Assembly: GCF_900106585.1 (NCBI RefSeq)
Contig: NZ_FNWH01000006.1
Coordinates: 124,001-188,000 of the forward strand
Reading direction: 5' to 3'
DNA length: 64,000 nt
Source: Acidaminococcus timonensis
Lineage (GTDB): Bacteria; Bacillota; Negativicutes; Acidaminococcales; Acidaminococcaceae
The notes under the pieces were generated by a model. It worked only from the letters and a program-made list of their open reading frames with translations. It searched no databases and was not told the DNA's origin. A program made the position numbers and the translations under genes. Of this stretch, positions 10,495 through 53,014 are shown piece by piece. Within the stretch, counting starts at the first letter, position 1. Each line of letters opens with the position of its first letter.

Positions 10495-11486
10495 AAACAT
10501 TTGAACTCGGCTTTTTTGATTTGGACAATTTCATCAAGAAACAGGAAACCTTTGATTTCCTGCCCACAGGGGGAAAAGAGCCCTGGCATGTGGCCTACAA
10601 TGTGAATGATCCCTTCTTCCAGATCATGGGGGCTTCCCTGGTATCCGTCCTGGAAAACAATCCGGGACAGCCCTTGGTGTTCCATCTGTTCACCGATGGC
10701 TACAGCCGGGAGAATGCGGACAAAGTGCGGCAACTGGCGGAAAAATGGCACTGCCGCTGCGTATTGTATGAACTGAATATGGAACCGTTCCAGGATTTCC
10801 ACGTGAAGGTGGCCCGGTTTTCCCGGATCACCTACGGCCGGTTGTACATGGCCAAAGTCCTGAAAAAGGAAACGGACCGGTTCCTGTATCTGGATGCGGA
10901 TACCATGGTGATCCGGCCGCTTAAGAAACTGTTTTCCCTGGATATGACGGGGAAGGCCATGGGGGCCGTTTCCGAGCGGCCCAAAGATGCGGCCTATCGG
11001 GGCGGCTATCTGAAACTAAAGAATGGGAAGTACTTCAACGATGGAATCATGATCATCAACATTCCGGAATGGGAAAAGCAGGGCATTACGGAAAAAGCAT
11101 TTTCTTTCCAGAAGGAACCCAGGGAACGGTTCCTGGGCCAGAGCCAGGACGTGCTGAATCTGACGTTCGACGGCACGAATCTGTTCCTGCCGCCGGTGTA
11201 CAACGAGTTCGGCGGGGGCGAGGACGATCAGGGCCGGGGCGTGATCATCCACTGGACCGGCCGGCGGAAGCCCTGGCAGATGGTGCTGGCACCCTTCGAT
11301 GCCCAGTGGCGGAAATACAACGAACTGTCGCCCTGGGACACCATTACGAATACGCTGCCCATCAAGAAGCCGGAGAACTACCACGACTTCAAGCAATGGG
11401 CCAAGTACCGGAAAAAAGAGAGCCTCACCGATTACCTGTGGGGCATGGGCTGGTATGCGATTTTGAAAATCAGATACAAGTTGTAA
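10491..11486 (+). CDS. Glycosyltransferase family 8, second copy
   Basis: A GT8 enzyme of 331 residues. FLYLDADTMVIRPLKKL holds the DXD motif, followed by YFNDGIMIINIPEW, QDVLNLTF and IHWTGRRKPWQ. AGGAGA precedes the ATG, which overlaps the previous stop as ATGA. An N-terminal extension of about 40 residues precedes the usual WHVAYNVNDPFFQIMGAS opening of the family. It ends the first LPS transcript, just before a strong terminator. Likely role: adding a hexose to the outer core or a repeat unit. Confidence 0.85.
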   Translation: MKTFELGFFDLDNFIKKQETFDFLPTGGKEPWHVAYNVNDPFFQIMGASLVSVLENNPGQPLVFHLFTDGYSRENADKVRQLAEKWHCRCVLYELNMEPFQDFHVKVARFSRITYGRLYMAKVLKKETDRFLYLDADTMVIRPLKKLFSLDMTGKAMGAVSERPKDAAYRGGYLKLKNGKYFNDGIMIINIPEWEKQGITEKAFSFQKEPRERFLGQSQDVLNLTFDGTNLFLPPVYNEFGGGEDDQGRGVIIHWTGRRKPWQMVLAPFDAQWRKYNELSPWDTITNTLPIKKPENYHDFKQWAKYRKKESLTDYLWGMGWYAILKIRYKL

Positions 11487-11520
11487 AAAAGAAGGGTTGC
11501 GAATGGGCAACCCTTCTTTT
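11487..11520 (+). terminator. Terminator closing the glycosyltransferase operon
   Basis: An approximately 12-bp stem, AAGAAGGGTTGC pairing with GCAACCCTTCTT, is flanked by A and T runs right after the stop codon. Confidence 0.9.
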
Positions 11521-11531
11521 TGTCATACGTT

Positions 11532-11590
11532 GTAGGGGCGGTTCGGTGAACCGCCCGCCCCAGGAAGCCCAATGCCGACCGGCATTGGGC
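11532..11590. repeat. Two adjacent palindromic intergenic hairpins
   Basis: GTAGGGGCGGTTC at 11532 opens a 9-bp hairpin (11536-11544 with 11548-11556). A separate perfect 10-bp hairpin follows, GCCCAATGCC (11567-11576) with GGCATTGGGC (11581-11590). Neither has a T tail, so they are not ordinary terminators. They begin a roughly 400-bp chain of hairpins with no credible gene. Confidence 0.6.
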
Positions 11591-11628
11591 GTTTTGGTGT
11601 CGGGGTGGAACGTTGCTGACGAAGCAGT

Positions 11629-11792
11629 CCGGGGCACCGTCCGTCGACACAACGTCGCCTCGCTACGATTTTCCGCCTCGCCGTTCCAATCCGCCTCCCG
11701 CCAACGCGCTTCGCTTGAACGAGGCTCCCGGCGGATGAGCGAAACGGGAAATTGCTTCACGCTCGGCTCCATGGTCGTCGGCCGGCGCCCCG
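11629..11792. repeat. Dispersed structured repeat, copy A (core 11643-11777)
   Basis: The 135-base core aligns without gaps to 52471-52605 with 15 differences (89% identity). The core forms a stem, 11668-11681 with 11739-11752, and an inner perfect 7-bp stem ATCCGCC (11689-11695) with GGCGGAT (11730-11736). An outer inverted repeat CCGGGGC (11629-11635) and GCCCCGG (11786-11792) encloses it. A minus-strand reading frame crosses it but is judged non-coding. Confidence 0.8.
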
Positions 11793-11828
11793 GCCTGCCT
11801 GGGTGGCAATCTCCGAAGCATAGTGCAG

Positions 11829-11940
11829 GCGGGTCGATCACAGCGATCGACCCCTACGGTGTGGCGATGCTGTCATACTCTCCGGGCGTTACGGTCGCAG
11901 TGTCCATTGCGGGGGCGGGCGTACCATTGGTACGCCCGCC
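11829..11940. repeat. Palindromic hairpins downstream of repeat copy A
   Basis: GGGTCGATC (11831-11839) pairs with GATCGACCC (11845-11853) and is followed by CCTAC, the reverse complement of the GTAGGGG start seen at 11532. Further on a perfect 12-bp hairpin, GGCGGGCGTACC (11914-11925) with GGTACGCCCGCC (11929-11940), closes an ATT loop. A degenerate version of the first unit appears at about 52658-52690. No gene is supported in 11520-12042. Confidence 0.6.
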
Positions 11941-12042: not shown

Positions 12043-12369
12043 ATGGATGGCACCGGAACTTTGCAGAAAACGAAAGAGATTGTTCTTAAGGCATTGGGTG
12101 ATCAAGATGTCCAGATTTATCTTTTTGGTTCCTGGGCCCGTCATGAGCAAAAACGAAGTTCAGACATCGATATTGCTATTGAAGGGAAAGAGGATATTTC
12201 TGCGTCTGTACGAAAAGTACGGGAGCAATTGGAAGATTCCACCATTCCTTTTCGCTTTGACGTGGTCGATATGGGCTTTGCCAGTGAAATATTGAAGCAG
12301 AGAATCCGCAGGGAGGGAATCTTATGGAAAAAATTCAGGAACGATTTGAACTTGCCCAGAAAGCGTTGA
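12043..12369 (+). CDS. mntA: MNT-domain nucleotidyltransferase antitoxin
   Basis: A small nucleotidyltransferase of 108 residues. It carries an exact GSX10DXD motif: GS at about residues 29-30 and SDIDIAI at about 41-47. In characterised HEPN/MNT systems this enzyme neutralises the partner toxin by adding AMP to a tyrosine next to the HEPN active site. GAGGAGCGAG lies before the ATG. Its last 46 bases overlap the HEPN gene in another frame, typical of co-translated pairs. It sits between hairpin repeats and a strong terminator inside an LPS locus, which suggests acquisition as a unit. Function is inferred from family and pairing. Confidence 0.85.
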   Translation: MDGTGTLQKTKEIVLKALGDQDVQIYLFGSWARHEQKRSSDIDIAIEGKEDISASVRKVREQLEDSTIPFRFDVVDMGFASEILKQRIRREGILWKKFRNDLNLPRKR

Positions 12370-12707
12370 ATAAACTCCATGAACTGGCTTCCAAAACGGA
12401 ATTGAATGATGTGGAACGGGATGCTTTGATCCAGCGTTTTGAATTTTCTTTTGAAATCCTCTGGAAATGTGCCAAAGAATACCTCTACACAGAAGAAGGT
12501 ATCGACGCCGCTTCTCCAAAGAAAGTTATCCGCTATTGCCGGGAACTGGGAATCCTGGACGAGGAACAGACGGTACAGGCTTTGCAGATGGCGGATGATC
12601 GGAATTTGACGACCCATACGTATGATGAATCGTTTGCCAAAGCAGTGGTGGAACGGATCCGGGAGTATGATCCCCTGCTGCAGACCTGGCTGGAAAAACT
12701 TCACTAA
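12324..12707 (+). CDS. hepT: HEPN-domain protein, HI0074/HepT family toxin
   Basis: An all-helical HEPN protein of 127 residues, of the family once named nucleotidyltransferase substrate-binding protein (HI0074). Near residue 94 the sequence RNLTTHTY matches RX4HXY. RX4H is the HEPN RNase active site and the Y is the residue AMPylated by MntA in studied homologues. GGGAGG precedes the ATG. It overlaps mntA by 46 bases and is followed by a strong terminator. Intact catalytic and target residues suggest a working module. The RNA target is unknown. Confidence 0.85.
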   Translation: MEKIQERFELAQKALNKLHELASKTELNDVERDALIQRFEFSFEILWKCAKEYLYTEEGIDAASPKKVIRYCRELGILDEEQTVQALQMADDRNLTTHTYDESFAKAVVERIREYDPLLQTWLEKLH

Positions 12708-52264: not shown

Positions 52265-52380
52265 TCCGGTGGTGATAGCTAAGGGGATCCACCTGTTCCC
52301 ATGCCGAACACAGTAGTTAAGCCCTTATACGCCGAAAGTACTCGAGTGGAAACGCTCCGGGAGGATAGGGAGCTGCCGGT
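52265..52380 (+). rRNA. rrf: 5S ribosomal RNA
   Basis: About 116 bases. The terminal helix pairs CCGG at the start with CCGG at the end. The conserved CCGAACACAGTAGTTAAGC and GGGAGGATAGGGAGC-type segments are present. Confidence 0.95.
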
Positions 52381-52386
52381 TAAGAC

Positions 52387-52423
52387 AGAAAGAGCATCGC
52401 AGACGCGATGCTCTTTCTTTTTG
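52387..52423 (+). terminator. rRNA operon terminator
   Basis: A perfect 14-bp stem, AGAAAGAGCATCGC (52387-52400) with GCGATGCTCTTTCT (52405-52418), and a T-rich tail. Confidence 0.92.
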
Positions 52424-52452: not shown

Positions 52453-52625
52453 CCGGGCAGGGCACCCCTTGCCGACGCAAAGTCGCCTCCCTGCCATTTT
52501 CTGTCTCGCCGTTCCAATCCGCCTTCTGCCAACGCGCTTCGCTTGAACGAGGCTCACGGCGGATGAGCGAAACAGAAAATGGCTTTACGCTCGGCTCCAT
52601 GGTCGGACAGCGGCACCCTGCCCGG
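52453..52625. repeat. Dispersed structured repeat, copy B (core 52471-52605)
   Basis: The core aligns base for base with 11643-11777 (120/135 identical). It is bounded by a perfect 10-bp inverted repeat, CCGGGCAGGG (52453-52462) and CCCTGCCCGG (52616-52625). The main stem (52496-52509 with 52567-52580) has only one mismatch in 14. The inner ATCCGCC/GGCGGAT stem is identical to copy A. Confidence 0.8.
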
Positions 52626-53014
52626 CTGAGGGACTACGGTATCGCTATGACCCCAACGCTGTAGGGACCGATTGCTTTGATCGACCTGCTTACCGACCTA
52701 CCCTGCGTGCAAAAAATTCTTTTCCAACCACTACTCGCTATCCACCAGCCACTGAAAAAGGGGGCTGTGTTTTTTTATTACAGTCCTTCATTTTGCATAT
52801 TTCTTCGTCCGGAAAACGCAAAGAAATCATACCATCCTTTTTTACAGGGAGAATATCCACGTTCTGCTGATTATACGGTTTGTCTTCTTTTTTTCCACTT
52901 GAAAACAGAAGTACATGATGATTTCAAAGGTAGGCATCCTGCAAAGGCTTCCTGACTCCCACATATTTTTACATATAAACAGATGTCAATCCTCAAAAAA
53001 AGCTTACAAAATCA
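52626..53014. other. Intergenic stretch with no supported gene
   Basis: A degenerate GTAGGG-type hairpin unit lies at about 52658-52690 (GTAGGGACCGATT, then GATCGACCTGC), related to the palindrome at 11829-11857. The rest is AT-richer and unremarkable. A 92-codon frame at 52677-52955 has no ribosome binding site and a low-complexity, Phe/His-rich product; it is not called. Confidence 0.5.

Follow-up and report, generated by a model that had tools for sequence, protein, structure and literature searches.

In integron attC sites it is the fold that functions, and the sequence of the stem is variable; ERIC/RU repeats are conserved in sequence between copies, and MITEs share their ends with parent IS elements. 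ERIC/RU-1 and RU-2 are described in one account as mobile intergenic repeats of enterobacteria, 127 and 168 bp long, and are likened there to MITEs (PMC2759123). Bacterial MITEs such as QMITE2 are presented in another as short and intergenic, with terminal inverted repeats and with transcripts predicted to form stem-loops, and are thought to be mainly IS-derived (PMC10969869). A third source treats the GTAG-tagged REPs, dispersed palindromes for which an IS200/IS605-type transposase (RAYT/TIRYT) is there proposed as the mover (PMC3733652). The locus considered here contains members of a single family of dispersed repeats, short (about 165-200 bp) and non-coding, that is common to three species of Acidaminococcus and to another family of Negativicutes (f15, which we infer to be the Selenomonadaceae). 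The strand reading AACGCGCTTCGCTTGAACG folds over its full length into an interrupted hairpin, in which the apical loop and internal-loop motifs are conserved and the stems drift yet remain paired.

Two copies lie in the window, by which we mean the whole stretch of DNA analyzed, 64,000 nucleotides from Acidaminococcus timonensis; they and the associated features listed below are all read on the forward strand. Copy A occupies 165 bp (11629-11793; from DNA search, fold and alignment) and copy B 173 bp (52453-52625; from sequence, fold and covariance model), the latter directly downstream of an rrn operon. The window alignment places 11643-11777 against 52471-52605 (135 bases each) without a gap and with 120 of the 135 positions identical, a figure given in the original prediction with which our recount agrees. 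Each copy folds over the full length of the 165-173 bp element, with z values against 200 dinucleotide shuffles of -3.28 and -2.94 on the two strands of copy A and -6.12 and -6.51 on those of copy B, and not one of the 200 shuffles folds as well as either copy on either strand.

The outer arms of copy A, CCGGGGC (11629-11635) and GCCCCGG (11787-11793), pair with each other, and their counterparts in copy B are CCGGGCAGGG and CCCTGCCCGG; both pairs of inverted repeats are present as they had been reported. Further in, the middle stem joins 11668-11681 to 11739-11752 and contains covarying pairs in the Acidaminococcus alignment, and the inner 7-bp stem joins 11689-11695 to 11730-11736 and is indeed identical in the two copies. 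The conserved apical motif AACGCGCTTCGCTTGAACG is at 11703-11721 in copy A and, by motif search, at 52531-52549 in copy B. The internal-loop motif, for which sequence and alignments give the family form CTTHACGC, is CTTCACGC in copy A (11755-11762) and CTTTACGC in copy B (52586-52593). Three substitutions in the middle stem had been read as preserving its pairing, and the sequences bear this out: 11674/11746 is C-G in copy A and T-A in copy B, 11672/11748 is T-G and T-A, respectively, and 11676/11744 passes from a C-A mismatch to a T-A pair. Copies A and B alone thus offer one double change and two one-sided changes, which is too little for covariation, and it is the family that decides.

The surroundings of the two copies are different in kind. 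Copy A has a family-8 glycosyltransferase gene on one side and an MNT/HEPT-like nucleotidyltransferase pair on the other; the MNT-type nucleotidyltransferase and its HEPT-like partner (12043-12707, to the right of copy A) are a possible toxin-antitoxin pair. Short palindromes starting GTAGGGG, resembling GTAG-tagged REPs, stand beside copy A at 11532-11561 and 11829-11857. On its minus strand copy A lies within a 123-aa open frame (11470-11841), but a coding origin was rejected because locus L009 and locus L010 each have one extra apical base, so that its frame is not kept. Copy B is preceded by 16S-23S-5S rRNA (the adjoining 5S at 52265-52381, an Rfam match) and then by a terminator-like hairpin 3' of the 5S rRNA (52389-52422), a setting on which the original prediction is silent. 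To its right lies a multicopy mosaic repeat (52627-52776; DNA search) that is separate from the hairpin. A terminator-like hairpin often follows this mosaic repeat, and elsewhere solo hairpin arms are fused to it.

The source genome (2.30 Mb, 6 contigs) contains the repeat at seven places by DNA search, and a covariance model built from Acidaminococcus (R1) finds six full copies and one cut at a contig start. Comparison of the repeats also revealed solo right arms, as well as a left arm fused straight to the right-hand repeat. Among 61 genomes, its own and those of relatives, only three are carriers, all of them Acidaminococcus: the source genome with seven copies, G007, very probably A. fermentans VR4, with two and A. 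massiliensis (G003) with one; R1 returns the same three over 59 genomes of the family. The hairpin and its terminator-like neighbor are found at equal distance at four of the five rrn 3' ends read in the source genome, and the hairpin at one of the four 5S 3' ends read in A. fermentans, two further ends there being outside the count. A. fermentans VR4 is recorded in its genome description as having six rRNA operons (PMC3035267), and the 5S-linked matches in G007 equal that number. Loci L004 and L005 have 1665 bp in common on the rRNA side at 99.7% identity, hairpin included, and differ beyond, from which it follows that rRNA-linked copies travel with the operon and, spreading with it, are not independent. 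In the source genome the rRNA-linked copies may go back to a single insertion behind one operon, which gene conversion between rRNA operons or duplication of an operon would then have carried to its sisters. The original prediction had named rRNA-linked duplication as an outcome that would undo it. This applies to the copies at four of five rrn 3' ends, but as a whole explanation it fits the spread of copy B only and was rejected: copy A, L009 and L010 are flanked by something other than rRNA, and L002 has the neighboring repeats without rRNA. A rearrangement has taken place at or close to the repeat of L002, whose two flanks are side by side in A. massiliensis but at separate places, 497 kb and 1785 kb, in A. 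fermentans.

Beyond the genus the repeat is found in a single further family. Scanning 300 genomes of the class with R1 gave 12 with matches, three Acidaminococcus and nine of family f15. The stems of the f15 hairpins found in this way are unrelated to those of Acidaminococcus, the apical motif is common to both, and the internal-loop motif CTTHACGC is in six of the seven f15 loci shown (L086 is without it). Of 380 genomes of the class, 34 have exact matches to the apical motif AACGCGCTNCGCTTGAACG, at 1-46 copies each; they belong to 9 of 102 genera, and all are either Acidaminococcus or f15. These counts are lower bounds, as further copies without the motif are recovered by a second model (R2), and the reversed control of the motif gave none in the genomes listed. 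In genus g52 the motif is present in 12 of 14 genomes (1 to 46 copies). R2, built only from g52 copies, matches genera g67 and g68 strongly (69-105 bits) and g32, g44 and g97 weakly (14.6-34 bits), but in the window its match at each copy is confined to the 18 bases of the apical motif (15 bits, E 0.1), so that the link between Acidaminococcus and g52 is a chain through intermediate genera. A second scan, with a core pattern over 84,980 species genomes, matched A. massiliensis and one Rhodobacteraceae locus (L012); the printed f15 copies do not fit this pattern, and the scan does not bound the family. Spread across phyla was rejected: L012 has no long hairpin (23 cross pairs, -52.9 kcal/mol) and its match is taken as chance. 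A plasmid or phage vehicle was likewise set aside, there being no match among plasmids and phages for one query copy per family (Acidaminococcus and f15) and no exact match to the apical motif in viral contigs.

Conservation of the fold was examined in two alignments. The first (A1) has seven Acidaminococcus copies, one of them (L009) partial; L007 was left out as cut, and L003 and L004 as near-duplicates of L005. Over its 50 pairs 98.4% of cells are paired, and eight of the 50 pairs are changed on both sides, a number reached by none of 500 shuffles and compared with zero to one for slid structures; the pair of columns 50/123 is seen as U-A, C-G and G-C. The number of further pair types is unexceptional (48 of 500 shuffles reach it), and with copies few and related the covariation in A1 taken alone is moderate. 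Six of the aligned Acidaminococcus copies have an intact left end, and in all of these the outer arms pair, with only the outermost base pair of L002 failing. The second alignment (A3) comprises 34 fetched g52 copies that fit a full-length regular expression, excluding those with a nested module or a replaced half. Here double changes affect 21 of 45 pairs and 174 cells, compared with 52.1 such cells in shuffles, and again none of 500 shuffles is as high; further pair types are once more unexceptional (208 of 500 shuffles reach the observed value). The selection on a folded DNA or RNA that had been proposed from copies A and B therefore has its counterpart in the family, with covariation above every shuffle in both alignments.

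The pairing is largely specific to the individual copy. Among 74 contexts, taken as 105 bases on each side without N and with swap partners from the same group, the median number of left-right pairs with a copy's own half and with a swapped half is 59 vs 45.5 for nine Acidaminococcus copies (several of them near-duplicates), 69 vs 27 for 19 other f15 copies, and 60.5 vs 38 for 46 g52 copies, in which the low own-half values (minimum 0) belong mostly to copies with a replaced half or a nested module. Seven g52 copies (L117, L142, L156, L157, L158, L167 and L176) have such a module, about 130 bases nested at one common position of the right arm, and form a subfamily. The flanking genes of L158 (G204) and L167 (G190) are the same and the hairpin orientation is opposite, either by inversion between the arms or by independent insertion.

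Conservation along the element does not follow a simple rule that loops are conserved, as mean entropy in A3 is nearly equal in paired (0.40) and unpaired (0.38) columns. By region, entropy is 0.16 in the apical part, 0.16 in the right internal loop, 0.38 in the left internal loop, 0.66-0.75 in the middle stems and 1.07-1.20 in the outer arms. The apical and right-loop values are partly built in, since A3 copies were picked by these motifs (the apical loop is longer in a copy that was detected independently of the pattern); the comparison of loops across the two families through R1 is less affected. The ends of the element vary as well (CCGGGG, CCGGGC, CCAGTC and others).

These patterns bear on two rival explanations. 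In quasi-palindrome correction, a replication mechanism in which one hairpin arm templates the other, one arm would be copied onto its partner and stems would stay paired without selection. The common double changes and the copy-specific but paired outer arms agree with this, as does a site consisting of nothing but arms around a 15-base loop. However, such correction would leave the apical and internal-loop sequences free to diverge between two families with unrelated stems, and it leaves dispersal unexplained; we consider it quite improbable as the whole account, though it may speed stem turnover within the explanation that we prefer. An ordinary MITE, derived by deletion from an IS element with terminal inverted repeats and moved in trans by a DDE transposase, would account for the size, the intergenic sites and the terminal inverted repeats, with the compensatory changes reflecting imperfect palindromy. 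Larger repeats with ends such as ATGTTACGGA...TCCGTAACAT also enclose some g52 copies, and a 12-bp direct repeat accompanies one insertion. Yet a DDE transposase requires constant ends, and it is the ends that are least conserved here (with the reservation already made for the low apical entropy). Moreover, for 15 of the 34 g52 copies no right arm taken from another copy pairs as well as the native one (mean score 18.2 own, 9.9 swapped). No IS having such ends was noticed in passing. An ordinary MITE is thus unlikely. The g52 genomes do have a second, more uniform MITE-like repeat of about 170 bp with GGAAGCACTGATAAATTCAG... ends (e.g. L182:18263-18431 in G212), present in many copies per genome with 91-97% identity among the matches listed; it adjoins or sits inside some hairpins and is absent from G142 at one site.

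When related genomes are compared, the hairpin is present at some orthologous sites in one genome and absent in another, as between mraY and murD, which shows gain or loss; empty sites of this kind were among the checks that the original prediction asked for, as were further copies in the source genome and other Negativicutes, and both were found. The mraY-murD spacer (genes named by NCBIfam) has a full hairpin in three of 14 genomes (G212, G248 and G234) and none in ten, with what appears by eye to be a partial hairpin-like remnant in G204. The empty site of G142 retains a 9-base match to a loop motif and may represent a loss. At a second site the hairpin is present in G212 and G142, partial in G248 (65 bits), reduced in G192 to two arms with a 15-base loop, and absent in G228, G200 and G106. 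The L176 and L174 sites are empty in G190, where the flanks differ by 8-21%; L174 has the 12-bp direct repeat, GCCGTCATTATG, on both sides, seen at this one site. In A. massiliensis the L002 site is empty, a short spacer with one terminator-like hairpin, and the gene pair that flanks copy A is separated there by 240 unaligned bases, vs 632 in the window, without the element. The entire repeat cluster between these two genes is missing from A. massiliensis. Empty sites could represent losses. Insertion into a pre-existing palindrome, a possibility suggested by the copy-specific outer arms, was rejected for the mraY-murD and L176 sites; the empty relatives show no such palindrome, so that the arms come with the insert there.

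A further possibility is that the repeat is a multi-copy structured RNA, either a small RNA or an element of mRNA processing or stability, kept for its function and with copies spread by recombination. The strong covariation in A1 and A3 is what such an RNA would show, and between mraY and murD it would be transcribed, a position that also argues against a strong terminator. G.T cells exceed A.C cells on one strand: among A3 pairs with a Watson-Crick majority there are 36 G.T cells and 17 A.C cells (one pair supplies 14 of the 36, and by number of entries the two are about equal, 11 and 13), and A1 has four G.T cells and no A.C cells. This excess leans weakly towards one folded strand, that reading AACGCGC..., the lean being weak because the structure was chosen with RNA rules. 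Against a functional RNA stand the patchy presence (the 1 to 46 copies spread over 12 of 14 g52 genomes, with the same sites empty in sister species) and the mixed neighbors of 40 g52 loci, which on a rough look are co-directional in 12, convergent in nine, divergent in eight, inside a mechanical ORF in eight and unclear in three. Nor does any Rfam family reach its cut-off on the element: the six Rfam matches in the window are all rRNA or tRNA, and ten f15 loci searched at E up to 1 gave two further matches. One is a ZMP-ZTP riboswitch in L085, at a distance from the hairpin there; the other is MIR172 in L128 (159-272), which overlaps the hairpin copy at 133-301 but, at E 0.45, scores 23.6 where the cut-off is 70. 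We judge a functional RNA of this sort to be as doubtful as an ordinary MITE.

A last alternative is a single-strand recombination site of the integron attC kind, the folded form of which would be recognized by a tyrosine recombinase. Variable stems with conserved unpaired positions follow attC logic, but the copies listed are scattered in both orientations without cassette arrays, and R-box pairs were not recognized by eye; this seems very improbable. Hairpins occur in pairs of opposite orientation about 100-280 bp apart at L086, L091, L127 and L128, a REPIN-like arrangement in which the stems look unrelated in those read.

The explanation that we consider probable is a mobile hairpin repeat that is non-autonomous and is moved or copied by a factor acting in trans, which would recognize the folded single strand (RNA or DNA) through the loops and not through a fixed end sequence. 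Against it, neither a transposition event nor a transposase was observed. Recognition through loops would leave stems and ends free to diverge. The small size, the lack of a gene, the patchy presence and the empty sites fit non-autonomous spread in trans, and the lack of constant ends of the kind needed by a DDE transposase favors recognition of the folded strand. One candidate was a RAYT/IS200-type enzyme. The Y1 transposase domain PF01797 is present in 19 of 39 genomes tested, but it does not track the motif: it is absent from the richest carriers, G212 (46 motif copies) and G248 (39), and present in G200 and G106, which have none, and the apical motif was near PF01797 genes in none of 30 fetched loci. 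As a present-day association this mobilizer was rejected. Of the original proposal of a MITE/REP-type element or multi-copy small RNA, then, the general kind has held up, with more than two copies, covariation, and filled and empty sites, but the REP-type (Y1) transposase does not accompany the repeat. More tentatively, the family may represent a class of mobile sequence in which the fold is the heritable identity, the loops being kept and the stems and ends rewritten in nearly every copy, and in which a folded single strand (RNA or DNA) would guide movement via an enzyme linked to no repeat so far.

Repeats are usually recognized by sequence, and families that conserve mainly a fold are easily missed, as a repeat with 46 motif copies in one genome and no Rfam entry illustrates. 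If movement is guided by structure, this is a natural system with freely changing stems, in which what a fold-recognizing mobility enzyme reads is testable, and the filled and empty sites, including mraY-murD, allow the effect of a long hairpin on an essential operon to be measured. The original prediction did not recognize the repeat as a described family, and neither Rfam (for the element) nor the open-access literature searched contains a description of it. Among known systems, it resembles ERIC/RU in being short, intergenic and MITE-like in size, but differs in that its stems and ends vary, its loops are kept and its hosts are Negativicutes, a distinction that is by description only. In contrast to REP and REPIN elements, which in the source cited above are 20-40 bp with a constant GTAG end, it is 165-200 bp without such an end, and PF01797 does not accompany it. 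It has terminal inverted repeats as MITEs do, but its ends are the most variable part and not constant between copies. Unlike attC sites, the copies listed show no cassette arrays, and attC boxes were not found by eye. The kind is therefore known, that of a dispersed intergenic palindromic repeat; what is new, as far as we have searched, is the combination of copy-specific stems and ends with loops shared across two families.
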